A stretch of 63,435 nt of DNA from a virus, in IMG/VR virus record IMGVR_UViG_3300010885_053606, positions 1-63,435 of that record; one strand, given 5' to 3'. Both the position numbers and the translations under genes were made by a program. A model generated the notes under the pieces. That model had not been told where the DNA came from. It was given only the letters and a program-made list of their open reading frames with translations, and ran no database searches. This document shows, piece after piece, positions 8,233 to 57,441 of the stretch (position 1 is the first letter of the stretch; the number at the start of each line of letters is the position of its first letter).

Positions 8233-9624
8233 TTAAAGTTCTGCGTTAAGCATTGTATTATTAAATACCACAGCAAATACACCAGGGTTTATAGTAGAAT
8301 TTGCATATACAAAAAGTCTATCTTTGCTACTACCGGTTACAAGGTCGTATATCGATGAGTAAGCATGCGTACCTATTGTATAACTAACAGCTGGTGAGAT
8401 TCTCATTACTACTGGTAGTAATATTGTATATTCAGAAGCTGTACCGACATTAGTGTAACCTTGTATAGATATATTATCTGCATAATACTGAAAATATCTT
8501 TGACAAAGAGCTAATTCTGTTTGAATTGGACGGTACTCAAAAGGTGTAGCAACTGAACCGGTTTCGAATTGAACACCTGTAGTCTGCCAGGTTGCACCGG
8601 TATTTGACCAGAGATTAACTGATCCTGGAACGTTGGTTGAAGACCCACCAGGTATAATACTAAACCATGTATTAGTGTTATTATTAATTATATCTGTTCT
8701 ATTACCTAAAAAATAATCAATTCTAAGACCACCTAAACTAGTATCTGTCCAGTTACCTGATGTAGGCCCAGGTATTATAATTGTTTTGTACTCCCAGGTA
8801 TTGATGGTATTAATTGTGTATGTCGTTAAATACCCTATTCCGGATCCTGCATCTCCTTTGTTATTACTAATAAGAATAGGGTAATTACCAGCAACACTCG
8901 ATTTAACCCAAAATGAAAGAGTGCATGTTTTAGCATTTGTTGTACCCCATGCTAAATCATACATATTTAATCCTTCTACTATTTGTACAAACGACTTACC
9001 AACGTCACCGGTTGTAACAGTAGCAGCTGTCTGCACGGTTACTTTTGCGGAATATGCAAATCCGGATGGACCGTCTTGTACTTGTTGAGACTTCCAAGTG
9101 CCATCTGTTGTGTTACCCGATCCACCAAAACGAAACCTATCAACAATATAGTTCGTACTTGCTCGTGTCCAGGTTTGTTGAACACCAGCATATCTTTGAT
9201 CAATACGCATATCCCCATTGATAATTTTATTTTTAAAAGAAAAATTAGTATTTGGTGTAAGCGCTGAAAGCGCAATTTTAAAGAGAGACGGAAAACCTCC
9301 ATTATAATCCCATAACAATAATTCACTACTATTTGACGGGTTTGTAATAAATGTTTTATTATGTATAGCAGTAGGTAATAAATTTGCCGATAAAGCTTGT
9401 GTAGATGTACTAAAAGTTAAATTAATATCATCAGTATCAAAATAAGTTAAAGGTATATTTTGTTGTATACCTGCTACAGCGTTATCTAGTATTAATAAAT
9501 CATTATTAATGGTAACTAAAGAATCTCCAATACATTGAGTTCCAGGAATAGGGTTAGAATTAGTCGTATTACCTGTACCTGTATTAGGTGTAGAACCGTT
9601 TATATAGTAATAAATGTTAGACAT
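8233..9624 (-). CDS. tail fibre protein with jelly-roll-type domain
   Basis: 463 residues. Near the N-terminus (residues about 29-45) is the docking motif TQCIGDSLVTINNDL that is shared by several fibres here. From about residue 129 comes a module common in phage fibres: FKNKIINGDMRIDQR, YIVDRFRF, then LSFWVKSSVAGNY, TGVQFETGSVATPFEYRP and ELALCQRYFQYY. This is a beta-sandwich-like carbohydrate-binding or adhesin region. The same module, interrupted by a large insertion, occurs in the 1139-aa protein at 33148-36567. A chaperone gene follows immediately. The role is probably host-surface binding. Confidence 0.75.
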   Translation of the reverse strand: MSNIYYYINGSTPNTGTGNTTNSNPIPGTQCIGDSLVTINNDLLILDNAVAGIQQNIPLTYFDTDDINLTFSTSTQALSANLLPTAIHNKTFITNPSNSSELLLWDYNGGFPSLFKIALSALTPNTNFSFKNKIINGDMRIDQRYAGVQQTWTRASTNYIVDRFRFGGSGNTTDGTWKSQQVQDGPSGFAYSAKVTVQTAATVTTGDVGKSFVQIVEGLNMYDLAWGTTNAKTCTLSFWVKSSVAGNYPILISNNKGDAGSGIGYLTTYTINTINTWEYKTIIIPGPTSGNWTDTSLGGLRIDYFLGNRTDIINNNTNTWFSIIPGGSSTNVPGSVNLWSNTGATWQTTGVQFETGSVATPFEYRPIQTELALCQRYFQYYADNISIQGYTNVGTASEYTILLPVVMRISPAVSYTIGTHAYSSIYDLVTGSSKDRLFVYANSTINPGVFAVVFNNTMLNAEL

Positions 9625-9631
9625 ATGTTAA

Positions 9632-10804
9632 TTAAATTTTATTAATGCTTCCTGTAGTACCGTAGCTATGTCTACCACCGGGGACGGTTCCGCTGCCTGT
9701 AATACTACTTTGTACATTACCGGCCTCATATTGATAGTAAAAATTACCACCACCATAAGAGAATGCCATAGATTGTATAAAATGATAGCCTTCTGCTAAT
9801 ACGAAATTAGAATTATGTACAATCATTCCTTGAGATTCAGATACAAATTGACCTTGTTGATGACAATCAGATACTAACGGTTTATCAATTTCTTCAATAT
9901 CAGCTACGTGAGTTAAATAACACCATCCACCGCTAGACCAGTGACTCTGATACAGACTTAATTCAACAGGGTCCCCGGTTATAAAGCTTACTCTATAATT
10001 AATATTACTAGTGTTATTACCACCTGCAATCCAATCACTATTAAAATTTAACATAGGTCCGTTTTTACTTCCAATGTCACCACCGAGAACAGTCCAATGA
10101 CTATCACTAAAAATACTAAAAGCAGATGGATATTGGTTTTGAGCGTTCCAAAGATAAAATTTAGGAGCTGATCCTCCAGTAAGCCATGTTCTACCAAAGC
10201 TAATTTCTGTAGTAATATTACCAGTGTTACCTGTTGTTCTTAAACAACCGATAAAACGCTTACTTAAATCATTTTTAAATACTCTAACACCTGCTAACAT
10301 AGTACGAAGATTAGCACCACTAGGAATAATAGGTACAGTGTTTTTAGTTCCTGATGATTTAACTTTATAATCAAAACCAGTTACACTTTTCCAATCTACA
10401 AAAGAGAGACTAAAACTAGTACTAATACTATCATACGATAGATAAATGTCGTAATTAGCATCAGGACGTAACCCGTAATTATTTAAATTAAAGGCAAGAA
10501 TTTTTGGTAATAATTGTATCTGCCAAGTAGATGTTCTTGTGTTGTATAGTCCAACAGCATTACCTTGAAACGGATGTAAATAAATTGTATTAATACCTAT
10601 CTTATCACTTGTAACTATAGGTAAGTTAGGGTCAAGAGAAAGTCTTAAACAAGCAAAAGGAGAAGCAAAATTTGTCGTAACGTTATCTATTAAACTATTT
10701 GAATTTAATAAACCTTTATTAAGGTTACTAAAATTATCATTAATTTTTATTAATGAATCTCCAATACATTCAGTATCGTATATAGGTAATACGTAGTTAG
10801 CCAT
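9632..10804 (-). CDS. putative fibre protein with docking N-terminus
   Basis: 390 residues. The first 35 residues carry the shared docking motif (TECIGDSLIKINDNFSNLN). The rest is beta-rich with many aromatic residues, including SHWSSGGWCYLTHVADIEEI and FSYGGGNFYYQYEAGN near the C-terminus. No named domain is recognised. It lies eight bases upstream of the 463-aa fibre gene, and TAAATAAAATATA stands just before its ATG. Probably an accessory tip or fibre that attaches to the same site as the other docking-motif proteins. Confidence 0.6.
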   Translation of the reverse strand: MANYVLPIYDTECIGDSLIKINDNFSNLNKGLLNSNSLIDNVTTNFASPFACLRLSLDPNLPIVTSDKIGINTIYLHPFQGNAVGLYNTRTSTWQIQLLPKILAFNLNNYGLRPDANYDIYLSYDSISTSFSLSFVDWKSVTGFDYKVKSSGTKNTVPIIPSGANLRTMLAGVRVFKNDLSKRFIGCLRTTGNTGNITTEISFGRTWLTGGSAPKFYLWNAQNQYPSAFSIFSDSHWTVLGGDIGSKNGPMLNFNSDWIAGGNNTSNINYRVSFITGDPVELSLYQSHWSSGGWCYLTHVADIEEIDKPLVSDCHQQGQFVSESQGMIVHNSNFVLAEGYHFIQSMAFSYGGGNFYYQYEAGNVQSSITGSGTVPGGRHSYGTTGSINKI

Positions 10805-19531: not shown

Positions 19532-20857
19532 TTAAAAAGTTTTATTAAAAAATGGGCTTGTAAGAGCAGCTGGTGTGAAATTAGTATCATAGCTTGTTCT
19601 TAATATCTTAGCGTTTTTTGTACTAGTTGGTAAACATAAAATAGAACCATTATATAAGTTAATAGCACCGGTATAAGTACCTGTTATAGATGAAAGTTTT
19701 ATAGTTGTATTAGTTTCTAAATTATAGATAATAGCGCTTGCTCCTGAGTTAAGAGGTAATAGTAGAACTCTACCGTCAGGTAGTAATGTTATAGCTCCGT
19801 AATAATCTGTTGTAGTACTACCTGTAAAAAAGTTAACTGTTGTAGTACTAGTTAGCGTATCATCAATTGGGTTGTATATTTTAGCACCACCGCAACTTGG
19901 ATCATTAGGAGCTATAAAAACACGACCGTCTAATAAAACTTGACCTAAATAAAAACTATTTGTTGTGATAGGGTAATACGCGTTAGATTGTACCGGGGCA
20001 GATAAATCGTATGAATATAATTCAGCTATATTCTCATTATTACTTGGAATTCTATAAACTCTACCATCTGGTAATAGTACACAAGACCGAGAACTACGAT
20101 TAAACTTCATACCTTGTGTGAATGTATTAGTTGTATAGTCATATATAATACATGGTATATTAGGGGAATTTGGACTTATAAAGACTTTATTATTAAAAAG
20201 TAAAGTATAAGAAGAGTATTTTGACCAATCTACTGTCAAAGGAGGAGAGAGAGGGTTCCATGTAGCAGTTGCTAAAAGACTAACAGGGTCAAAGCAAACA
20301 GGTGCACTACTTCCACTTGATGGAACTATTAATACTTTTCCATTTGGTAATAAAATACCTCCACCTTTAGAATTAATTCCTAATGCTACTGCTGTTGTAG
20401 ATTTATTAGTTCTTGAGTCATATATAAAACTAGATATACCGTCTGGTGTTGTGCAAAAAACTCTACCGTCAGGTAGAAGTGTACCGCCTCGCAAAGGAGT
20501 GTTCAATACAGCACCTGTATCAGTTACTAATTCTGTGTTAGGGAACGGTGTATTAATATGATTTATATATTGAAAATAATTCGTTACCCCGTAATTGTTT
20601 AAACTACCGTTATGCCAGGGTGGAAAATAACTTTGTCTAGCACTTACTACTCCTGTAAAAGTTGTTACAACGTTAATACCACTAACACCATAAACAGGGG
20701 ATGTTATACCGATATCGGGCTGTAATGATTTAGTAACGCTAGCAGATAGAATAGTTAAAAAACTATCAATCTGATCAAAATTATTATTAAAAGTATCGAC
20801 AGAGTCCCCGATAACGTCTGTGCCTTCTATTGTTTGTATATTAATATTAAAACTCAT
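19532..20857 (-). CDS. Kelch-like beta-propeller fibre protein (copy 1)
   Basis: 441 residues. The N-terminus has a variant of the docking motif (GTDVIGDSVDTFNNNFDQID). From about residue 110 the protein is built of about 45-residue repeats, each with LLPDGRVF or a variant (GGTLLPDGRVFCTTP, GGILLPNGKVLIVP, SCVLLPDGRVYRIP, ITLLPDGRVLLLP) and an IYDP- or IYNP-type strand, giving a beta-propeller of the Kelch type. The C-terminal end TSPFFNKTF is shared with the next two proteins. It is the last of three propeller genes in tandem. A surface-binding role is inferred. Confidence 0.7.
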   Translation of the reverse strand: MSFNINIQTIEGTDVIGDSVDTFNNNFDQIDSFLTILSASVTKSLQPDIGITSPVYGVSGINVVTTFTGVVSARQSYFPPWHNGSLNNYGVTNYFQYINHINTPFPNTELVTDTGAVLNTPLRGGTLLPDGRVFCTTPDGISSFIYDSRTNKSTTAVALGINSKGGGILLPNGKVLIVPSSGSSAPVCFDPVSLLATATWNPLSPPLTVDWSKYSSYTLLFNNKVFISPNSPNIPCIIYDYTTNTFTQGMKFNRSSRSCVLLPDGRVYRIPSNNENIAELYSYDLSAPVQSNAYYPITTNSFYLGQVLLDGRVFIAPNDPSCGGAKIYNPIDDTLTSTTTVNFFTGSTTTDYYGAITLLPDGRVLLLPLNSGASAIIYNLETNTTIKLSSITGTYTGAINLYNGSILCLPTSTKNAKILRTSYDTNFTPAALTSPFFNKTF

Positions 20858-20865
20858 ATATTATA

Positions 20866-23331
20866 TTAGTAAGTAGCGTTATTAAAAAACGGACCAGATA
20901 AAGCTGCAAAATCAAAATTTCTTTGATGATACGTATAAATTAATTTACCTGTAGTGCCAAGATAATAAGGTGGAATAAACAAATAACCATTTCTTAATAA
21001 AAATGAACCTATTAATTTGTTTACATTTACATATTCAGTTACATCGTTCACTGGATCGTATATTAATGATTTAGATGCTTCATAAGCCGGTATGAATATT
21101 CTTCCGTCAGGTAATAATGAACCTCCAGCATAAGGACCGGACCCTGCTGATCCTACCGTTTCAAATTTATCCCTTGTAGTAGATGTAAGTGTGTCATTTT
21201 TATAATTGTATATATAACCACACGGTATTGAATTACCAGCATGAGGTGTGGTAAAAATACGTCCATCAGGTAACATACAACCACCAAGTCGGTTTTGACC
21301 AGTTGCTGGATAAATTGCATTTGAAACTATAAACATATTAGTTTTTAATGAGTAAATATAACCTCTATCTATACCGTTTGAATTAATGGTAGTGCACGGT
21401 AACCTATATACATTACCGTTAGGTAAAAGTAGAGATGTATATGAACCACCTATAGGGGTGTTACTTGAATAATATGTTGTATCTAAGATTGGATCGTAAA
21501 TTAAAGCAGATGTGTTGCTTTTGCATGGGTTAATATAAACTTTACCATCAGGTAATAAAGTACCACCATAGTATGCATAATCATTAGATGTACTCCAATT
21601 ACCATTACATGTAAGTATTGCATTATTTATTGGGTTATATATTTTACCTGGTTTGTTTTTAGTACTTGGTATTAATAATATACGACCGTCAGCCATTAAT
21701 ACACCTGAAGAGCTAAATATACCTTGATTTTTATCAGGGTAGTTAGCGGGCTGTATAGTGTCAGTTAAAGGATCATATATAGCAGCTTTACCTACTGTAT
21801 AATTACTTTGAGAACAATATACCCTACCATCGGCCATTAGTACCCCGCTTTCTATACCTTGAGGAAATACTGCGCTACAATCAAATATAGTTGTTGTACC
21901 GGACATAGGCGGGTTAATAGAAACCACATCTTGTATATGTTTTAAAAGTTTATCATTTTTTGTAATTTGCTGATGAGTAACGTTAGGTAAAGTTAACGGG
22001 TAGACATCATAAGTTTGAGCTCCTGTTGTATGAATACGATTATCCGAGTATGTTGAATCAATAAACTCCATAGACATAGTACCACCAGGAAAATATACAT
22101 CTTTATAATATGGTGCGCCAGCTCCATAATAGTTCTGTGCAAGCTTTATAGAAATGTCAGGGTCGGTTGATTTAACATTTTTCCATGTAGTTGAATCTCC
22201 TATATCAACTAATTTTGTCTTAATACCACCTACAACACTGTAAATAGTAGACCCGTAAATAGTACCCCAACCGTCGTTTGGAGCATAACTAAAAGCTCCT
22301 GTTTTATATTTTAAACGATAATAACCGGCATCTAAATCAGCTTGTATACCTAGGGTATTTTTAAAATATGTATGAACATTGCTATAAGCGTTCATAGTAA
22401 TATTACCTTTTAAAGCACCAAGTTTTGCTAAAGGAACGGAAGCGTTAGTTGTATCAATTGTTTTGGTTGTTGGTATATTTTCTATTATTGTATTTGTATT
22501 TGTTACTTTTTTTGTTTGAAAAACTTCTACATCCTTTAGATGAGATCTTGTATCCCAAATTATCTTACCAGTAGAATTTTTTACTACTACTGCCCACCCA
22601 GCTGGGTTTTCTTTCCAAGTACCAGCTCCTTTAAAATTAGTTGCTTCAAAATACAATACATGATAACCTTTTAATAAATACACTGTTTTTTTTGATATAG
22701 CATTATTAGAAAATGATTGTGTATAAAAAACTGATTCAATATTATGATCACCATTTTTATTAAAATTATCTATTTTTAATGTTAATGAATTATCGGCTTG
22801 ACCTTCAAACATATAATTACCATCATTTGGTATATATATGCTACGTTCAATTTTCATTAATTGATTAATGTATATATGATCATTTGTTGGTGGAGCAACC
22901 CATACAGCGTATGAATTCATAAACTGATCCCAAGAGAGGTGTTCTACAGGAAACACCTCTCTTGACTTACCTGAAAATGTATCTTTCATTGATGTAACAG
23001 TTTCTGTTTTTGTAACTTCTTCTGTATCATTAGCTGTTTCACTAGTAAATGTTGTAATGATATTTGTTAATGGTATATTGTTATCGTTAACATGCCAAGG
23101 TGGGCATATATTTTCATCTAACACAAAAGCAGCGCCACCCTTAAACAAAGATGTTGTAGAATTTAAATTATAACCAGCTACAACAGAAGTAATTTCTTTA
23201 GATGGTAAGTTTTTTGTTAATCCGCTTATTGTACAAAGAGCTGTATCAAGACTATCGTTATTTTTATTAATAACTTTAATAGAATTAAATAAACATTGAT
23301 TTTCGTCTATAGTATCTGTAAAATTGCTCAT
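20866..23331 (-). CDS. PA14-like plus Kelch-like beta-propeller fibre protein (copy 2)
   Basis: 821 residues. A divergent docking start (ENQCLFNSIKVINKNNDSLD) is followed by a PWH motif (CPPWHVNDNNIPL), then residues about 145-265 resemble a PA14-type carbohydrate-binding domain (SIYIPNDGNYMFEGQADNSL, LLKGYHVLYFEATNFKG, GWAVVVKNSTG). Residues about 490-775 are propeller repeats (GVLMADGRILLIP, GTLLPDGKVYINP, GSLLPDGRIFIPA). The end (SGPFFNNATY) matches its two neighbours. It overlaps the following gene by one base (TAATG). It looks like the propeller protein with an extra binding domain between dock and propeller. Confidence 0.7.
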   Translation of the reverse strand: MSNFTDTIDENQCLFNSIKVINKNNDSLDTALCTISGLTKNLPSKEITSVVAGYNLNSTTSLFKGGAAFVLDENICPPWHVNDNNIPLTNIITTFTSETANDTEEVTKTETVTSMKDTFSGKSREVFPVEHLSWDQFMNSYAVWVAPPTNDHIYINQLMKIERSIYIPNDGNYMFEGQADNSLTLKIDNFNKNGDHNIESVFYTQSFSNNAISKKTVYLLKGYHVLYFEATNFKGAGTWKENPAGWAVVVKNSTGKIIWDTRSHLKDVEVFQTKKVTNTNTIIENIPTTKTIDTTNASVPLAKLGALKGNITMNAYSNVHTYFKNTLGIQADLDAGYYRLKYKTGAFSYAPNDGWGTIYGSTIYSVVGGIKTKLVDIGDSTTWKNVKSTDPDISIKLAQNYYGAGAPYYKDVYFPGGTMSMEFIDSTYSDNRIHTTGAQTYDVYPLTLPNVTHQQITKNDKLLKHIQDVVSINPPMSGTTTIFDCSAVFPQGIESGVLMADGRVYCSQSNYTVGKAAIYDPLTDTIQPANYPDKNQGIFSSSGVLMADGRILLIPSTKNKPGKIYNPINNAILTCNGNWSTSNDYAYYGGTLLPDGKVYINPCKSNTSALIYDPILDTTYYSSNTPIGGSYTSLLLPNGNVYRLPCTTINSNGIDRGYIYSLKTNMFIVSNAIYPATGQNRLGGCMLPDGRIFTTPHAGNSIPCGYIYNYKNDTLTSTTRDKFETVGSAGSGPYAGGSLLPDGRIFIPAYEASKSLIYDPVNDVTEYVNVNKLIGSFLLRNGYLFIPPYYLGTTGKLIYTYHQRNFDFAALSGPFFNNATY
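22930..22963. other. strong perfect hairpin inside a fibre gene
   Basis: CAAGAGAGGTGTT (22930-22942) and AACACCTCTCTTG (22951-22963) are exact 13-base reverse complements around an 8-base loop, within the coding sequence of the 821-aa protein (residues about 123-133). There is no U-tract on either strand, so it is not a classic terminator. Confidence 0.7.
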
Positions 23332-24737
23332 TAGTAAGTTTTGTTAAAGAACGGGCTTGTTAATACATTTAAGGAAAAATTCTTTTGATAATAAAAGCGT
23401 GCAATTTGTACGAAATTTGGGTACCCGGCGCATATAATATTTCCATTAGAAAGTAGATGAACACCTGCCCAGCGCAAGCCAGTAATATTTGGTACGTTAA
23501 GAGCTAAATCAGAAGCTGGATCATAGACAGTACATGTGTTACCGCTTCCATTCCAGTTTATTAAAAACAATCTACCGTCCGGTAAAAGAGTGCATCCTCC
23601 GTAATAAAGACTATATGTATCAAACGAACTATTAAAAAAACCAACCGATGTTGTTGCTTTCAGAGTATCGGTAATAGGGTCGTATATTCTAGCACCTTTA
23701 CAACCTGGATCATTAGGAGCCATAAAAACGCGCCCGTCTATTAATAATCTTGCAGGTAGCCATCCAGATTCACTCTTTGAAAATGTTCCGCCAACTGGAC
23801 TAAACTTATTAGTTTTGTAATTGTAAATATAAGCTGTTGTTCCTACTGTACCTGGAAAAGATTTCCAGCCTCCTGGTACTCTATAAACATTACCATCAAG
23901 CATTGTTACACAAGACGCCGATCTACCGTTAGCAAGATTATCAGAATATATAGTAGTATTGGTTACTGGGTCGTAAATAATAGCGTAATCTTTTTCACTA
24001 GTAGGGTTACAAAAAACATTACCATTTGGTAATAAAGCTGAATTATAAAATGCATACTTGTTATTAGTCTTCCATGTACCGCCACAGTATGTGACTTTAT
24101 CTGTTTGAGGGTCATACATAGCACCTGCACTGCTTTGATCACTAGGTGTTAAAAATACTCTACCGTCAGCCATTAAAACACCACCACAACTACGTAACCC
24201 GGTTGCTCCTGCTGCTGCAGTAAATGTATCAGTTGATGGATCATAAATAGCTGATGTACCTGAACCGTAATTTGATCGTGAAAAATACACTCTGCCGTCA
24301 GCTAAGGTTATAGCTCCTTCAACATCCCCCGCAACAGTATTATTAGCTTTAGAAGGTATAATAGTTATAGCATTTTGCATTGGGGGATTAAACTCTGCTA
24401 CATCTTTTAAATATTTTAAATATTCTGTTTTACGTGTAAAAATTTGAGATATTCTATTATCGCCTATTTCTTGATAGAGTGGTAATCCGGTTTGCCCAAG
24501 ATGCCATTGTGGGCAAGTAGGCTGGGAAATAGTTACTGAGCGGTTAGTGGTAGTTACAGCGTTAGTATTAAAACCGCCACCAATATACGTTACATTGCCT
24601 TTTTGAACACCTGTTAAAGACTGATATATAGATTCAGCACCATTAGAAAGATTATTAAAATTATTATTAATATCGTCTAATGTTTCACCGAGAAAACGAT
24701 TCGGGTCAATCTGTACGGTGAAATTACAATCAGACAT
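23331..24737 (-). CDS. Kelch-like beta-propeller fibre protein (copy 3)
   Basis: 468 residues. The docking start (PNRFLGETLDDINNNFNNLS) and a PQWH motif (CPQWHLGQTGLPL, about residue 74) match the sister proteins. Propeller repeats run from about residue 135 (AITLADGRVYFSR, GVLMADGRVFLTP, SALLPNGNVFCNP, RLLIDGRVFMAP, GCTLLPDGRLFLI), each with an IYDP or MYDP strand. The C-terminus is LTSPFFNKTY. First of the three tandem propeller genes in transcription order. Probably a virion adhesin; which glycan or surface it binds cannot be told. Confidence 0.7.
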   Translation of the reverse strand: MSDCNFTVQIDPNRFLGETLDDINNNFNNLSNGAESIYQSLTGVQKGNVTYIGGGFNTNAVTTTNRSVTISQPTCPQWHLGQTGLPLYQEIGDNRISQIFTRKTEYLKYLKDVAEFNPPMQNAITIIPSKANNTVAGDVEGAITLADGRVYFSRSNYGSGTSAIYDPSTDTFTAAAGATGLRSCGGVLMADGRVFLTPSDQSSAGAMYDPQTDKVTYCGGTWKTNNKYAFYNSALLPNGNVFCNPTSEKDYAIIYDPVTNTTIYSDNLANGRSASCVTMLDGNVYRVPGGWKSFPGTVGTTAYIYNYKTNKFSPVGGTFSKSESGWLPARLLIDGRVFMAPNDPGCKGARIYDPITDTLKATTSVGFFNSSFDTYSLYYGGCTLLPDGRLFLINWNGSGNTCTVYDPASDLALNVPNITGLRWAGVHLLSNGNIICAGYPNFVQIARFYYQKNFSLNVLTSPFFNKTY

Positions 24738-24743
24738 AAACTA

Positions 24744-25310
24744 TTAAGTACCGTAAACAGCCAAACTAATATTGCTAACGTCTACGTAAGTATTTGTTTT
24801 AACATCTTGTACTACAAAATTAAACCCTGAGTTACTGCTGGAATTACCGGTTATTTTACCGTTATAGTCTACAACAACAACAGTAGCGTTACCGGCTGGG
24901 CTAAGCGAACTACTAGCAACAATTGCATAGTTACTAGTAGTAATAAGCCCAAAATTAGAAAAAATTAATGAATATTTACCAGTGTCGGTTTTATATAGTG
25001 TACTTACATTATATGAAGTTGTTGTACTAATAATTTGATTACTATCAGTGGTTTGAGTGCCGTTAAATAAAACCCAACATGTTGCAATTCCATTATATTG
25101 ATTTGTTAAATTATGAAATTGATCTTTAGCAGAAGATGAAACATTATTAAATAATGTATAAAGAGCATCGTTACCTCGTACGGAGTCATTAATTTGAGTA
25201 TCAACGTCACATACATCGTTACTTAAAATATTAAAGTTGTTATTAATAGTAACAAGAGAGTTACCAATACATTCAGTTGGTTGAATTGTTGTAATAGATG
25301 AACAGGACAT
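24744..25310 (-). CDS. small fibre protein with docking N-terminus
   Basis: 188 residues. The start contains the docking motif almost exactly as in the 390-aa and 463-aa fibres (PTECIGNSLVTINNNFNIL). The rest is a short beta-rich domain (CWVLFNGTQTT, YSLIFSNFGLITTSNYAIVA, GFNFVVQDVKTNTYVDVS). The domain fits a compact C-terminal fibre tip. TATAAATAAT lies 10 bases before the ATG. It is immediately upstream, with a 6-base gap, of the three propeller genes. Confidence 0.6.
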   Translation of the reverse strand: MSCSSITTIQPTECIGNSLVTINNNFNILSNDVCDVDTQINDSVRGNDALYTLFNNVSSSAKDQFHNLTNQYNGIATCWVLFNGTQTTDSNQIISTTTSYNVSTLYKTDTGKYSLIFSNFGLITTSNYAIVASSSLSPAGNATVVVVDYNGKITGNSSSNSGFNFVVQDVKTNTYVDVSNISLAVYGT

Positions 25311-29480: not shown

Positions 29481-32153
29481 TTAATTCACCCATTCAAGGT
29501 TAAGAAGTTCAGTATAAGCTGGTTTAAGTTGTTGTATCGCTTTTCTGATATCGTTTTCAATTTTATTGCGTAGTACAGAATCGGTAATATGTGTACCTGT
29601 AATTTTAATATTAAAAAATGCACTTTTTGATCCTGGTAAACGATGTTTAAAGAAACGATCAATAGTTTCAATATACTGTAAAGAGCCTGTTGGTATGTCC
29701 CATACAATATCTTGACTGATTGTTTTTTCTCTAATAAAGTATTCTAAAAATTTAGGATCAATTGCGTAATCATATATTTTGATAGAATCAATACCACCGT
29801 TCCAAATAACAGATGTAGATGCAATTTCAGTATTAAAGTTTTCTGCTTCACCAGCTGGTGTACCTATATAAAGATTATTAACAAAATCGTAATTTAAAGA
29901 AACATTGTCTGGTAGTAGTAAGTTACCTCTAAACGTTTTATCTATATAAAGAGATAAGGTTTTATCTTTAAAAGTAGCAGTAATTAAATGCCAATTGAAA
30001 TTAACTAATCCTTCAACCGGTATTGAAAGTTTATAAGTAGAATATGGTAAATTAATATTAGAAGGTTTTACCGATACTTTAAACTGTAATTGAGTGTTAT
30101 TATTATAGTTGATAGGGTTAAAAATTCTTCTTTGTTCATATCCTGTAAAATCACCTACTTCTTTAAAGGTAAGTTTATCGTTATCCTGTGTTGAAGTAAT
30201 AGGGTCTAAAGTATTAACATGTTGCGGTAGATATGTAGCTTTTTTAATTTCGCCATCAAGTGTTATTTGATACAAGTATTTTTCATAGTCGTGATATATA
30301 ACAGCGTACCAAGTAAATTTATTTGTTTTTCTATTGTATTCATTAATAAAGCTTATATTTCTTCTGCTAGGAAATAAAATAGCGTCTCCAAATTCTGATG
30401 ATTGAGTATGATAATACTCACCAACTAAATATGTATGTTTAACAGAAATATCATCTTTATCAAAAATATGTATTTGATTTGAACCAGCTAAAACCCAGAT
30501 ATCTCCATTCGGTGCAACAGCAATAGCTACAGCTGGAACCGGTGTGTAGGCATAATTATCTTCTTGATTAACGTCATACGGATAAAACCAATATTCACCA
30601 TCAACATAAACTTGACCAGCAAAAAAACCGTTATCGCCGTTTGCATTTTGAATGGTCCAGTGTTTATTACGCGAATCAAATTTGCTGTCATAGCAATTAT
30701 TTGTTATATGTAATTTACCGTTGATATCAAAAGCTAAAATATCATTTGGTGTATAATTTGTTGTATAGGTATAATCTGGAAAAGGCTCTATAAAATTAAG
30801 ATTATTATCAAAATAACTATAATTAGTAAAACTTGATCCGTATATAAATGCTGTATAAGCTAATGGATCATACTTATAATATTGTAAATCATAATAAGCA
30901 GTACTTGTTATATCTTCTTGATATATAAGATCTTTATCAAAAATAAAAGTTTTAGTATCTGTAACGGCAATTATATTATCATCTCCATCCAAGATAAGAA
31001 GAGCCGGGGTACCAGATAGAGCAAAATTATCTCCTGTTGTAGTTTTAGAATAAGCAATGGCGTTACCGTTATAATCATATTTTGTTATACGTTTATTAGT
31101 ACTATCTAATATAACAACTTCAGATTCACTATTAATACTTGTATAGATAGGTATAACAGGTTCTTTTCTTACATACTCGAGATTTAAATCATAGTATGTA
31201 TTACCTTCTTGATTAAAGTAAAAAAGATGGCCATATGTAGTTTCAGGTATTACATAAAAAGGATTATTATATAAATTATTAAAAAATATACCATAACCAC
31301 CTTTTCTAAAATTACCAATAAGTTGAGTATTAGTTGCATTTGACCAATCATTATTATATAACCAAAAAGATAATGTAAACTCGTTGATAAGATTGTACGA
31401 GGGATTACAATCTACGTTGCAGCTTATTAAATCAGAATTATAAAAAGAAAGAGTATTTCTATCGGTATAATTAGCACTTTTAAATGTTTTTAACCATGCT
31501 TGATTAAACACATTAAAATTAATAGTATTTTTGTAAATAGAATTGTCTATAGTGTTTATTGACCAGTTGTCAATACTTAAACGTAATCTATTTTTATCAT
31601 TACCAGCAAATGTTTCTACGGCTTCAATTGCTGATTTTTCGCCATTATGAAAATATTGATACATAACACCAGGCTCGAGTGTAAGTGTTGATGGTACATC
31701 ATAGTAAACAGGAGAATGAGATTGATAGTCGTATATATTAGCTTTTCCTTCTAAAGCTTGTTTATATGATAATATACCAGGATTGTAATAGCGATCTAAC
31801 CATTGTGGGTCTTTAAAAGGCTCAGCATAAAACCAAGTACAAAGCCAAGTACCATCCTCGGGATCACTTGTCGACCCCCAGGGTGTTGTCTTACCGTAAC
31901 CACCTTGCTTTTTAAAAATTTTATCAGCAAGAGCTGGTATAACCCCTGGTATAGCTCCGTCTCCCACGAGCGTAGACTCTGATATTTTTTGAGGTTTAGC
32001 AAAGTATGGTACGTGAAAAAACGTTGTTAAGTCTTTAGTGAGAACAACTTCATTAGTATACGCCTCATACCCTAAGTGAACATTTTCATACCCATCTGAT
32101 TGATTTGTACCGGTAAATATTTTATAATAATTTCTTTGTTGAAAATTAGACAT
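29481..32153 (-). CDS. baseplate-associated protein with LamG-like domain
   Basis: 890 residues. The first half includes LINEFTLSFWLYNNDWSN, typical of concanavalin-like/LamG folds, and the second half completes a LamG pattern (FNWHLITATFKDKTLSLYID, then WNGGIDSIKIYDYAI at about residues 715-790). Between them lies an NHL-like part (VAPNGDIWVLAGSNQIHIFD). The last 60 residues (IDRFFKHRLPGSKSAFFNIK, DIRKAIQQLKPAYTEL) look like an attachment domain seen in structural proteins of T4-like phages. It may link the baseplate to glycan-binding parts. The LamG call is moderately secure. Confidence 0.65.
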   Translation of the reverse strand: MSNFQQRNYYKIFTGTNQSDGYENVHLGYEAYTNEVVLTKDLTTFFHVPYFAKPQKISESTLVGDGAIPGVIPALADKIFKKQGGYGKTTPWGSTSDPEDGTWLCTWFYAEPFKDPQWLDRYYNPGILSYKQALEGKANIYDYQSHSPVYYDVPSTLTLEPGVMYQYFHNGEKSAIEAVETFAGNDKNRLRLSIDNWSINTIDNSIYKNTINFNVFNQAWLKTFKSANYTDRNTLSFYNSDLISCNVDCNPSYNLINEFTLSFWLYNNDWSNATNTQLIGNFRKGGYGIFFNNLYNNPFYVIPETTYGHLFYFNQEGNTYYDLNLEYVRKEPVIPIYTSINSESEVVILDSTNKRITKYDYNGNAIAYSKTTTGDNFALSGTPALLILDGDDNIIAVTDTKTFIFDKDLIYQEDITSTAYYDLQYYKYDPLAYTAFIYGSSFTNYSYFDNNLNFIEPFPDYTYTTNYTPNDILAFDINGKLHITNNCYDSKFDSRNKHWTIQNANGDNGFFAGQVYVDGEYWFYPYDVNQEDNYAYTPVPAVAIAVAPNGDIWVLAGSNQIHIFDKDDISVKHTYLVGEYYHTQSSEFGDAILFPSRRNISFINEYNRKTNKFTWYAVIYHDYEKYLYQITLDGEIKKATYLPQHVNTLDPITSTQDNDKLTFKEVGDFTGYEQRRIFNPINYNNNTQLQFKVSVKPSNINLPYSTYKLSIPVEGLVNFNWHLITATFKDKTLSLYIDKTFRGNLLLPDNVSLNYDFVNNLYIGTPAGEAENFNTEIASTSVIWNGGIDSIKIYDYAIDPKFLEYFIREKTISQDIVWDIPTGSLQYIETIDRFFKHRLPGSKSAFFNIKITGTHITDSVLRNKIENDIRKAIQQLKPAYTELLNLEWVN

Positions 32154-33147: not shown

Positions 33148-36100
33148 TTATATCTCAGCGTCAGCTGTCCAGCATGTATAAATGTCTTGAACCGATAAAG
33201 GTATATCAAGTTGTAATGTAAAGCCTTGTACTGATTGCCCTTCAAGACCGATTCTATTTTTATCAGAAGTGTAATATACAGTATCTTTATTAGTACTACG
33301 AACTCCTCCCTTTGTACCTGTTTTTGGATCGTACCATTGTACATTTGGTATAGCTCTTTTTGTTACTTTATATCTTTCAATAATATTATAATAAGAATTT
33401 TGTACAGGTACATAAGCCCACGCTGCAGTTTCAGCGTTAGCGGATCCAGGAGCTACATCTATATCGTATGAAGATTCAAAGTAACGCTGACAAAGAGCTA
33501 ATTCAATTTGAGCGGGTCTTATTTCAAATGGTGTAGGTGTGGGTCCTACTTCAAGCTGAACACCAGTAATCTTAAATTCATTACCTGCTGTTGCCATAAA
33601 TGTATTATCACTATCAACTGAACCAATAGTAAGATTTAAGTTATTTTGATTATTTGAAGTCCATGTATTTAAATTATAGTTGTAATTATCTGAACCAGCA
33701 GATATACACCATAATAAACCTAAACCACTATATTGATTTTTATTGTTAACTTGATAATAGTTAGGAGGTATTGTTAATGAAACATATTGCCAAATATTAG
33801 CTTGCTTAATAGTGTATGTTGTTGTATATTGCCCAGTAATTTGAAAAGGGTTGTTGTAATGATTTCTAGCAGTTAATGCATATTTACCGGCGACACTCGA
33901 TTTAACCCAGAATGATAAAGTAGCAGGGCGTGCTTGAGCTGTACCGTAACATAGATCTAATATATTAATTCCTTCTATACGTTGACGAATACCAAAAAGA
34001 TCAGATGATTGTAAGATAGGTTTTGCAACTTCAACTTTAAATCTTAATGAATAATAATATCCTGGGGGGGCGTTTGTAAAATCAAGATTACTATCAGCTA
34101 CTCTCTGTACTGATGCTACACCTGCATTATATGCATTAACAACTGTACTCGAAGCAGTATAATAAACACACGTATTTTTACTAATACCTACTCTTGACCA
34201 GGTAGTAACACTAGGTGTTTTATATTGTAAATCTAAAATCCATGAAGAGCCTTTATTACCTGCACTACCACTAACTATTGCTATTGGATAAAAACCACTT
34301 GAAGATACAGTTACATATTTAGTTTGATAAGTAAGATCATGTACTCCGGGTAAGGATATTGTTTTATTACCTGTTGTTGCTCCACTTAGTGGTGTATTAA
34401 ACCAAAAATAAGCAGCATCGCTACTACCTAATTTAAAATTATAATCACCGGATACGCTTGCGTAAAAGAAACCTTGAGTTACAGCAGTAAAAGCGCCACT
34501 TAAATTAGCAACCACTGGTAAATTACCTCCTTCTTTACCTTCACCAGAATATTCTAACTCTTCAGGCCACGGCCATTCAGGATCTACATATTCACCGTCT
34601 GCCGGTTTACCATCGTACGTACACCCTAATATAGAGGAAATACTATTAAAACTAGTTACGTTAGAAATTTTAGATGCTGTGTTTAGATAACCTATATTGT
34701 CATTAAAGTAGCCTTTATAAAAGTCATAATGAAAACCTGATAAAACTGATGTACCGCTTCCAATAATTAGAGGGTTATAATATGTAGCATACGGTACACC
34801 TGACGTTAACCAAGTAATACCATCAGTTGAATTAACTGTAAGTATAGTATTTCCTGGGGGGACTTGATGAAGTGCTACAAATTTACCGTTACCGTAAACT
34901 ACAGCGTCCCAAGCCTGTCCACTAGGGGTAGAAAAAGTATTTGATTCATACCAAGTTATACCATCATTAGAATAAGCAAAAGCGTTGGTAGTATTTGTCT
35001 TATTTGAGGCGCCGTTTACTGCAATAGCAACATATCTACCGTTACCGTAAGTTACATCAATCCAGTATTTATTAGCAGGAAGTGTAGTTTGATTCCATGT
35101 AATGCCGTCAGTTGAATACGCAGCTATATTTGTGGAGGAATTCAGTTGTCCAAGTGCGGCGTAAGCAACAGCAACAAACACCCCTAAATTACTACCATAA
35201 GTTACTGAGGACCAAAATGCAATAGTAGGAAGTGTTGATGCAGTCCATGTTATACCGTCAGTTGAATACGCAGCTCTATCTGTGTGAAGACTTCCAATTC
35301 CTGAGGCTACAGCAACAAATTTACCGTTACCGTAAGTTATTGACGACCATGTTGCATTATAAGGAAGTGTGGTTTGATTCCATGTAATGCCGTCAGTTGA
35401 ATATAAACCAATATTACTGGTACCTTGAGCATTGCTACCAATAGCAACAAATTTACCGTTACCGTAAGTAGCATCACCTATATAAAAATCAATAGGAAGT
35501 TTGGTTTGATTCCATGTAATGCCGTCAGTTGAATATAAACCGATATTTGGAGTACTTGCAACGTATGAGCCACCAAAAGCAACAAATGTACCGTTACCGT
35601 AAGCTAACCCATAGTTTGGATAAGACTTACCTTCTAACTTACCTCCTACTAAACGAATTGGTAAAGGTGTTAGGTACCAAGTTACGGCATCTGTCGAATA
35701 AGCACCATAACCTTGATCACCTAATGTTACAAATTTACCACCACCAAATACAAATGAATAGTAGCGTTGCTGAGCTATAACTGGTAATGATGACGATGTA
35801 TATATTGGAGTAACAACGTTAGCATCTTTATTGAAACTGTACGCCGTCCATCTATCTACAGTATAGATGTCTTGATTATTTAAAATAATTGATGTCCCAC
35901 CAAGACGTTGATCGACTCTAAAATCACCATTAATAATTTTATTTCTAAAACTAAAACTACCATTATCGAGTGTAAACGCACTAAGCGGTATAGTACCTGC
36001 AGCAAGCTTATTAGATGTAATCGAATAATCTGGTACTTCAGGAATTACAGTTAAGTTATTTGATATAACAACAACTCTGGAAGCTATAGGTGGTGGAGTT

Positions 36101-36567
36101 GTAAAAACTATACCATTCAAATTAATGTAATAATCACCACCTGTATTATCAATAATAGGCTCTTGAACAGTACCATCAATAGTTACACGATGATTACAAG
36201 CATTAGTCGAATTAGTATTATTAAGTGCCCAGATAGTTGTTATACCATCACCAATAAAAACTGTCTTAATAGGGCTTTGAGCGGAACCTGATATAACTAA
36301 AGTAGTATTATCTGAAGTTGTATTAATAGTTAGACCGTTATTGGCTACTATTGTTTTGTAATACATTGTTGTGTTTGGAAGCCCTCCAGTACCAACTGAT
36401 GTAACACCATTAAAAATTGTATTACCGTTTCCAAGATTTTTTCCAGCTGTAACGAATTGTTGAGCTGCAACCTTGTATGTGCCTGTCGTACCTCTAGCTA
36501 CAGGTATCTCATCGTTCTGTGTTACTGACCCACCATCTGTTAATGAAGAAATTTTAGTACCGGACAT
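33148..36567 (-). CDS. tail fibre with seven-repeat propeller inserted in a jelly-roll-type domain
   Basis: 1139 residues. The N-terminus (MSGTKISSLTDGGSVTQNDE) is a common tail-fibre start. The fibre module seen in the 463-aa protein begins at about residue 209 (FRNKIINGDFRVDQR, YTVDRWTA) but is interrupted: about 265-600 hold seven repeats with YSTDGITW-type Asp-box-like motifs and YGNGKFVA strands (a beta-propeller), and about 680-810 a PA14-like domain (FFYASVSGDYNFKLGSSDAA). The fibre module resumes at about 820 (APPGYYYSLRF, IEGINILDL, LSFWVKSSVAGKY, LALCQRYF at about 1024). A beta-rich tip ends it. Likely a receptor-binding fibre. Confidence 0.75.
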   Translation of the reverse strand: MSGTKISSLTDGGSVTQNDEIPVARGTTGTYKVAAQQFVTAGKNLGNGNTIFNGVTSVGTGGLPNTTMYYKTIVANNGLTINTTSDNTTLVISGSAQSPIKTVFIGDGITTIWALNNTNSTNACNHRVTIDGTVQEPIIDNTGGDYYINLNGIVFTTPPPIASRVVVISNNLTVIPEVPDYSITSNKLAAGTIPLSAFTLDNGSFSFRNKIINGDFRVDQRLGGTSIILNNQDIYTVDRWTAYSFNKDANVVTPIYTSSSLPVIAQQRYYSFVFGGGKFVTLGDQGYGAYSTDAVTWYLTPLPIRLVGGKLEGKSYPNYGLAYGNGTFVAFGGSYVASTPNIGLYSTDGITWNQTKLPIDFYIGDATYGNGKFVAIGSNAQGTSNIGLYSTDGITWNQTTLPYNATWSSITYGNGKFVAVASGIGSLHTDRAAYSTDGITWTASTLPTIAFWSSVTYGSNLGVFVAVAYAALGQLNSSTNIAAYSTDGITWNQTTLPANKYWIDVTYGNGRYVAIAVNGASNKTNTTNAFAYSNDGITWYESNTFSTPSGQAWDAVVYGNGKFVALHQVPPGNTILTVNSTDGITWLTSGVPYATYYNPLIIGSGTSVLSGFHYDFYKGYFNDNIGYLNTASKISNVTSFNSISSILGCTYDGKPADGEYVDPEWPWPEELEYSGEGKEGGNLPVVANLSGAFTAVTQGFFYASVSGDYNFKLGSSDAAYFWFNTPLSGATTGNKTISLPGVHDLTYQTKYVTVSSSGFYPIAIVSGSAGNKGSSWILDLQYKTPSVTTWSRVGISKNTCVYYTASSTVVNAYNAGVASVQRVADSNLDFTNAPPGYYYSLRFKVEVAKPILQSSDLFGIRQRIEGINILDLCYGTAQARPATLSFWVKSSVAGKYALTARNHYNNPFQITGQYTTTYTIKQANIWQYVSLTIPPNYYQVNNKNQYSGLGLLWCISAGSDNYNYNLNTWTSNNQNNLNLTIGSVDSDNTFMATAGNEFKITGVQLEVGPTPTPFEIRPAQIELALCQRYFESSYDIDVAPGSANAETAAWAYVPVQNSYYNIIERYKVTKRAIPNVQWYDPKTGTKGGVRSTNKDTVYYTSDKNRIGLEGQSVQGFTLQLDIPLSVQDIYTCWTADAEI

Positions 36568-56967: not shown

Positions 56968-57441
56968 TTAACAACCAATAGCAAACCAAAATATACCGTC
57001 CTGAGTTGATCCTCCCATTGAGCGTAATTTAAACTGAGTACTACTTATAATCTGACCGCCTGCTACCGGTTGACTTGCATCAGCGTCTTGAGAAATATAT
57101 ATTTGAAATCCTTTATTTGGAAAAGCTATAGGGAAGCTATATGTTACTGGATTAGCATTTATTAGAGCATAGCCCCACTGCATAATAAGCCCTGATGGAA
57201 ATTTTTGCCATCCGTTAGATGATAAGCTGGATTTAAAACTAGATGAAAGAGTCGTTACTACTGTATTAAGGTTAGTAAGAGTAGATGAAATACTACTCAC
57301 GTTTGTTGACAACGCAACAATCTGTGTACCAAAATAGTTTGTATTAGCATTAATATAACCTAAAGAATCCCCTATACAATCTTCTCTGTTAATTGTCCAA
57401 GGTCCTGTTGCAGGTATTACCGGTGTAAATATATTAGCCAT
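56968..57441 (-). CDS. short tail fibre with docking N-terminus
   Basis: 157 residues. The docking motif (REDCIGDSLGYINANTNYF) is followed by a heptad-like stretch rich in Leu, Ser and Thr (TLTNLNTVVTTLSSSFKSSL), probably a trimeric coiled stalk, and a C-terminal knob (NGWQKFPSGLIMQWGYALIN, TYSFPIAFPNKGFQIYIS, GIFWFAIGC) of the type found at the tips of many phage fibres (gp53-like C-terminal domain). It is a minimal dock-stalk-knob fibre. ATAAATAAT stands nine bases before the ATG. Confidence 0.72.
   Translation of the reverse strand: MANIFTPVIPATGPWTINREDCIGDSLGYINANTNYFGTQIVALSTNVSSISSTLTNLNTVVTTLSSSFKSSLSSNGWQKFPSGLIMQWGYALINANPVTYSFPIAFPNKGFQIYISQDADASQPVAGGQIISSTQFKLRSMGGSTQDGIFWFAIGC

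Follow-up and report, generated by a model that had tools for sequence, protein, structure and literature searches.

A phage tail fibre domain apparently split at one hairpin loop by a seven-repeat propeller and a PA14-clan domain

The closest described systems are the evolved Dits (evoDits) of siphophages, whose internal insertions bring in carbohydrate-binding modules and have been shown to promote adsorption (PMC10688798; PMC8540738). Fibre evolution is usually told as the end-to-end swapping of tip domains. We describe a 1139-aa tail fibre that is best explained, with a probability of about 0.83, by a CBM4-like module with a short C-terminal domain that took a seven-bladed propeller and a PA14/GLEYA domain into one beta-hairpin loop. 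The window, i.e., the whole stretch of DNA analysed, is a virus record of 63,435 bases. Judged from its major capsid protein, which has about 33% identity to cyanophage gp23-type proteins, the virus is a T4-like myophage. Long adhesin-like genes stand in a row on the minus strand in the middle of the window, and the 1139-aa gene is among them. Two tail-fibre genes in the window, the 463-aa ORF and the 1139-aa ORF, have a module in common. The features are as follows.

33148-36567, minus strand: 1139-aa tail fibre ORF (P0002), intact, bearing the split domain (PHROG 4492 tail fiber protein, E 2.3e-38)
35956-36567, minus strand: N-terminal part, residues 1-204, preceding the split domain; probably serves for attachment and as shaft
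35830-35955, minus strand: first piece of the split jelly-roll domain, residues 205-246 (profile model 1-35; AlphaFold2 pLDDT 68-95; strands 234-237 and 240-246)
34117-35829, minus strand: insert, residues 247-817, replacing a 7-residue hairpin loop (one gap in alignments A1 and A2; none in the 390 contiguous matches)
34762-35763, minus strand: seven-repeat beta-propeller, residues 269-602 (leave-one-out repeat test; family ORFs; EPTP in relatives)
34153-34737, minus strand: PA14-clan (GLEYA) domain, residues 611-805 (outer limits judged from the sequence)
33475-34116, minus strand: second piece of the split jelly-roll domain, residues 818-1031 (profile match of its own; pLDDT mostly 80-98)
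33151-33474, minus strand: conserved C-terminal domain, residues 1032-1139 (alignment A2; phmmer matches in relatives)
8233-9624, minus strand: 463-aa tail fibre ORF (P0001), same domain uninterrupted (PHROG 4492, E 1.1e-48; AlphaFold2 confident over 128-380)
9100-9120, minus strand: empty hairpin loop of the 463-aa fibre, residues 169-175, flanked by strands 164-168 and 176-182

At its C-terminus the 1139-aa fibre ends in AEI, AEL being the ending in most relatives. In the fetched loci, the matches of residues 1-204 were weak and partial, and no further relatives came up. Several adhesin-like ORFs (8233-9624, 9632-10804, 24744-25310, 56968-57441 and others, minus strand) have an N-terminal motif of the ECIGDSLxxIN type, which is probably a common attachment module; the motif is absent from the translation of the 1139-aa fibre.

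The first part of the insert holds seven repeats of 44-51 residues each, starting at residues 269, 318, 363, 407, 452, 502, and 553. The repeats are real. Each was omitted in turn and scored with a profile of the other six, which gave 30.8-72.5 bits, and 200 shuffles of each repeat reached 11.3 bits at most. The family is found in 97 other distinct ORFs of viral contigs, with exactly seven repeats in 77/124 ORFs; none of the 97 has the propeller and the fibre domain in one ORF. Some of these relatives pass the Pfam cut-off for EPTP, a repeat that forms a propeller, and P0002 scores 13.9 against the cut-off of 21. We did not find a convincing sequence relative of the insert in the PDB. We infer the closed ring, since AlphaFold2 did not fold the insert. 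Further along, the Pfam GLEYA model (PA14 clan) matches residues 693-774 with 31.6 bits, above the curated cut-off of 26.2, and the match covers positions 1-84 of the 91 in the profile. No relatives of the PA14 part were found among phages or viral contigs. Thus, the seven repeats and the PA14-like region that an initial annotation, made from the sequence alone, had placed between the two parts of the fibre domain both hold.

Lectins of the PA14 clan usually have an Asp-Asp pair at the calcium and sugar site. The stretch GSSDAAYFWF from residue 714 has Ser-Asp at the presumed position of this pair, as judged by eye, which would call for some caution before a sugar site of the flocculin type is assumed in this domain. 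The substitution, together with the lack of any identified catalytic or binding motif in the insert, would suit a spacer, a structural stiffener or a relic that has no binding function. We regard this as unlikely. Adhesion is a common role of propellers and of PA14-clan domains, and the gene lies within a row of long adhesin-like genes. Evolved Dits bind the host with the help of their inserted modules (PMC10688798). The insert is more likely an extra binding surface that would let the fibre grip more kinds of host surface.

The two fibres share two colinear BLASTP blocks. Residues 117-164 of the 463-aa fibre match residues 193-240 of the 1139-aa fibre (51% identity, E 3e-8), and residues 184-397 match residues 832-1049 (37% identity, E 2e-32). 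The spacing between the blocks is 19 residues in the former protein and 591 in the latter, in line with the initial annotation, which had noted the same blocks in both fibres and their wide separation in one. It had put about 560 residues at 34150-35830 between them, and the alignments resolve these to a single insertion of 571 residues. In alignments of 24 (A1) and 54 (A2) proteins the one large gap falls between YTVDRWTAYSFN and VASVQRV.

A profile of the shared module (218 positions, built from contiguous relatives) was run over every ORF of the fetched loci and found the module in 412-413 ORFs, 340 of them distinct. There are 390 contiguous single matches (319 distinct ORFs), spanning 191-285 residues, in which the N block runs directly into the C block. 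The other module-bearing ORFs are contig-end fragments, apparent frameshifts, shortened forms, and ORFs with a second or weak match. Among the 340 distinct ORFs, which come from phage contigs, a large insert cuts the module only in the 1139-aa protein. In the shortened forms (L020, 7563-8441; L070, 7989-8873; L079, 7950-8591), the profile matches the first and last parts only. The place of P0002 in the family tree is uncertain, as it sits on a long branch among open forks.

The flanks of the insert were rejoined and scored with a model rebuilt without any sequence from the window. They gave one full-length match (model 1-217, 154.6 bits), running from NKIINGD through LCQRY of the PHROG 4492 module, which in the native protein is interrupted by the 571 residues. 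The C flank alone scored 110.8 bits, and seven control joins, in which it was preceded by other 42-residue stretches of the same protein, scored 109-112 bits. The N flank thus adds about 44 bits of genuine domain signal at the correct position. It is also 55-62% identical to its best relatives, compared with about 37-42% for the C flank, and so appears to be retained as a piece of the fold. At first, the profile hit model positions 18-56 twice, which would mean a duplicated domain start after the insert; the second match enters the end of the PA14 region, and we rejected this candidate because the alignments and the rejoined flanks give one clean domain.

AlphaFold2 was confident over residues 128-380 of the 463-aa protein and over residues 205-250 and 812-1107 of the 1139-aa protein. 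Strands 240-246 and 818-824 of the latter are the equivalents of 164-168 and 176-182 of the former, which are neighbours in a hairpin; the insert therefore replaces the 7-residue loop of that hairpin. Structure prediction, which the initial annotation had named as a check, thus places the insert in a loop between confident flanks; it failed for the insert itself, where the pLDDT is <50. These models are supporting rather than independent evidence because the AlphaFold2 alignment included contiguous relatives. The rejoined-flank test with its controls does not depend on them.

In Foldseek, the contiguous domain matched CBM4, CBM16, and CBM22 modules as well as phage tailspike and baseplate domains, which agrees with the earlier guess of a jelly roll. 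The P0001 model aligned to 1gui, 2zey, 1k42, and 4xun with TMt 0.62-0.65, i.e., a CBM4-type beta-sandwich. Pfam CBM_4_9 has no match in either the 463-aa or the 1139-aa protein and matches 4/36 longer relatives. The split protein found the same CBMs with lower scores and fewer aligned columns, as expected where the first strands lie beyond the reach of a sequential alignment: with the N flank out of reach, TMt fell from 0.65 to 0.45 for 1gui and from 0.62 to 0.52 for 1k42.

That the C flank finds CBMs even without the N flank is what one would see if the shared blocks were separate complete domains and the 1139-aa protein merely a longer string of them. We consider this very improbable. The N flank measures only some 40 residues, and in the contiguous matches the C block follows it directly. 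Rejoining adds the bits and the full-length match that no control join does, and the same CBMs score lower when the N flank cannot be aligned. The evidence supports the reading of both flanks as pieces of one split CBM4-like jelly-roll domain rather than two complete domains, as the initial annotation had it.

The insertion is known from one contig, and we did not find a second copy of the 1139-aa gene among public contigs, although a copy of the 463-aa gene with 100% identity is present in a further contig, L088; a wrong join of unrelated propeller-PA14 sequence during assembly could account for this, yet it is most improbable given that the ORF continues in frame and unbroken across both joints over 3.4 kb, that both joints fall within one short loop of the fold, that neither base composition nor third-position GC shifts much along the gene, and that the same window holds a probable analogous case in an 890-aa ORF.

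Insertion into the loop could work as follows. The fibre would be attached by its N-terminus, with the conserved module at the other end. The two ends of the hairpin are neighbours, which would let the jelly roll close and fold as before and the fibre still assemble. The propeller and the PA14 domain would stick out of the jelly-roll surface as added glycan- or surface-binding lobes, and a trimeric fibre would carry three copies of each. The fibre would retain its original lectin-like face as well as its C-terminal end. Recombination within the fibre cassette may have fused the gene in frame with a stand-alone adhesin gene, such as those that neighbour fibres of this type in other phages; that gene would be the source of the insert. 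In one phage contig (L232), a propeller of the same family is a separate gene shortly downstream of three contiguous fibre genes, which is a plausible source arrangement. GC and third-position GC of the insert are like those of its flanks, and a foreign base composition was rejected on this ground. We found no sign of a target-site duplication at the joints, where the longest common word is 8 bases (chance median 7, maximum 10). Intermediate forms with only one of the inserted domains, which the initial annotation had proposed to look for, did not appear among the 412-413 domain ORFs or the 98 distinct propeller ORFs. A scan of genome contigs gave no relative.

The 890-aa ORF (29481-32153, minus strand) is two genes away from the 1139-aa gene. 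It has Laminin-G-like halves at residues 218-323 (31185-31502) and 644-817 (29703-30224), with an NHL-like repeat region between them (30225-31184), and the second half of Laminin_G_3 was matched at residues 716-800. When residues 218-323 were joined to the C part, Laminin_G_3 matched in two stretches with 28.6 bits (cut-off 27.6); the C part alone scored 23.8 bits, and four control joins scored 20.4-22.2 bits in one stretch. The first half alone matched only a ConA-like receptor-binding Pfam model, below cut-off, which may reflect a shared lectin fold and nothing more. These scores favour, to a modest degree, an NHL-like propeller that interrupts a Laminin-G-like jelly roll, as a second case in the same cassette. 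The case is a lead because we did not find an uninterrupted relative of the domain.

Other propellers occur in the window and in other phage contigs. Three paralogous kelch-like propeller proteins are encoded at 20866-23331, 23331-24737, and 19532-20857 (minus strand); in the 821-aa paralogue (20866-23331), about 300-350 extra residues separate the N-terminal module from the propeller, and they include a PA14-like match that stays below cut-off. In L372 (4770-7439), a propeller of the YGNG-type family lies inside a head-closure (Hc3)-type protein whose flanks are colinear with phage C75C1 (136 residues there, about 360 in L372). In L364 (3870-7052; also L357, L366-L369, L381, and L389), such a propeller occupies the middle (residues 275-541) of a phage structural protein, the N part of which matches the propeller-less gp59 of Cellulophaga phage phi17:1. 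The comparators are too distant, and L372 and L364 are thus leads rather than proven insertions. From both window cases, which would be independent of each other, and the Hc3-type protein, it is a tentative suggestion that propellers are recurrent insertion cassettes in lectin-like jelly-roll loops of phage adhesins.

Loop insertion would add a binding surface while the old one is kept and the assembly-competent end of the fibre stays intact. A loop that takes 571 residues in one protein and stands empty in 390 matches indicates that a fibre module very common in phages is permissive at this site. An additive mode of host-range evolution becomes directly testable at this loop.

Both pieces of the split domain and the C-terminal domain belong to the PHROG 4492 CBM4-like module of cyanophage, Methylophilales, and Pelagibacter phage fibres; unlike the 1139-aa fibre, every other member examined runs through this loop without interruption. 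The repeats are those of the YGNGKFVAV / STDGITW propeller family (L320-L396; Synechococcus phage B23, Sinorhizobium phage Phosso, and Xanthomonas phage XacN1), which usually have seven. Elsewhere, members of that family are mostly separate genes or terminal domains and never occur with this fibre domain. We found nothing in the literature on insertion of a propeller or PA14 domain in fibres. According to a passage on alpha-integrins, the I domain sits within the propeller and has widened ligand binding (PMC10659397), which is likewise a domain within a domain; there the propeller is the receiver, and we claim no homology. Passages on eCIS fibres report beta-propeller lectins as binding domains and, in eBAP5, an insertion in the baseplate-attachment domain (PMC12923769); a propeller inserted in a jelly roll is not described in those passages. 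The architecture of the 1139-aa fibre is unusual and was seen once in this sample, and its principle is known from evolved Dits. As in the evoDits of siphophages (PMC10688798; PMC8540738), the insertion is internal and the N- and C-terminal parts align to the uninterrupted form. Unlike in evoDits, the receiver is not a Dit but a CBM4-like jelly roll in a tail fibre (PHROG 4492) of a T4-like myophage, and the insert is a seven-repeat propeller with a PA14-clan domain rather than CBMs. The 1139-aa fibre is thus not an evoDit, but by analogy it may work like one.
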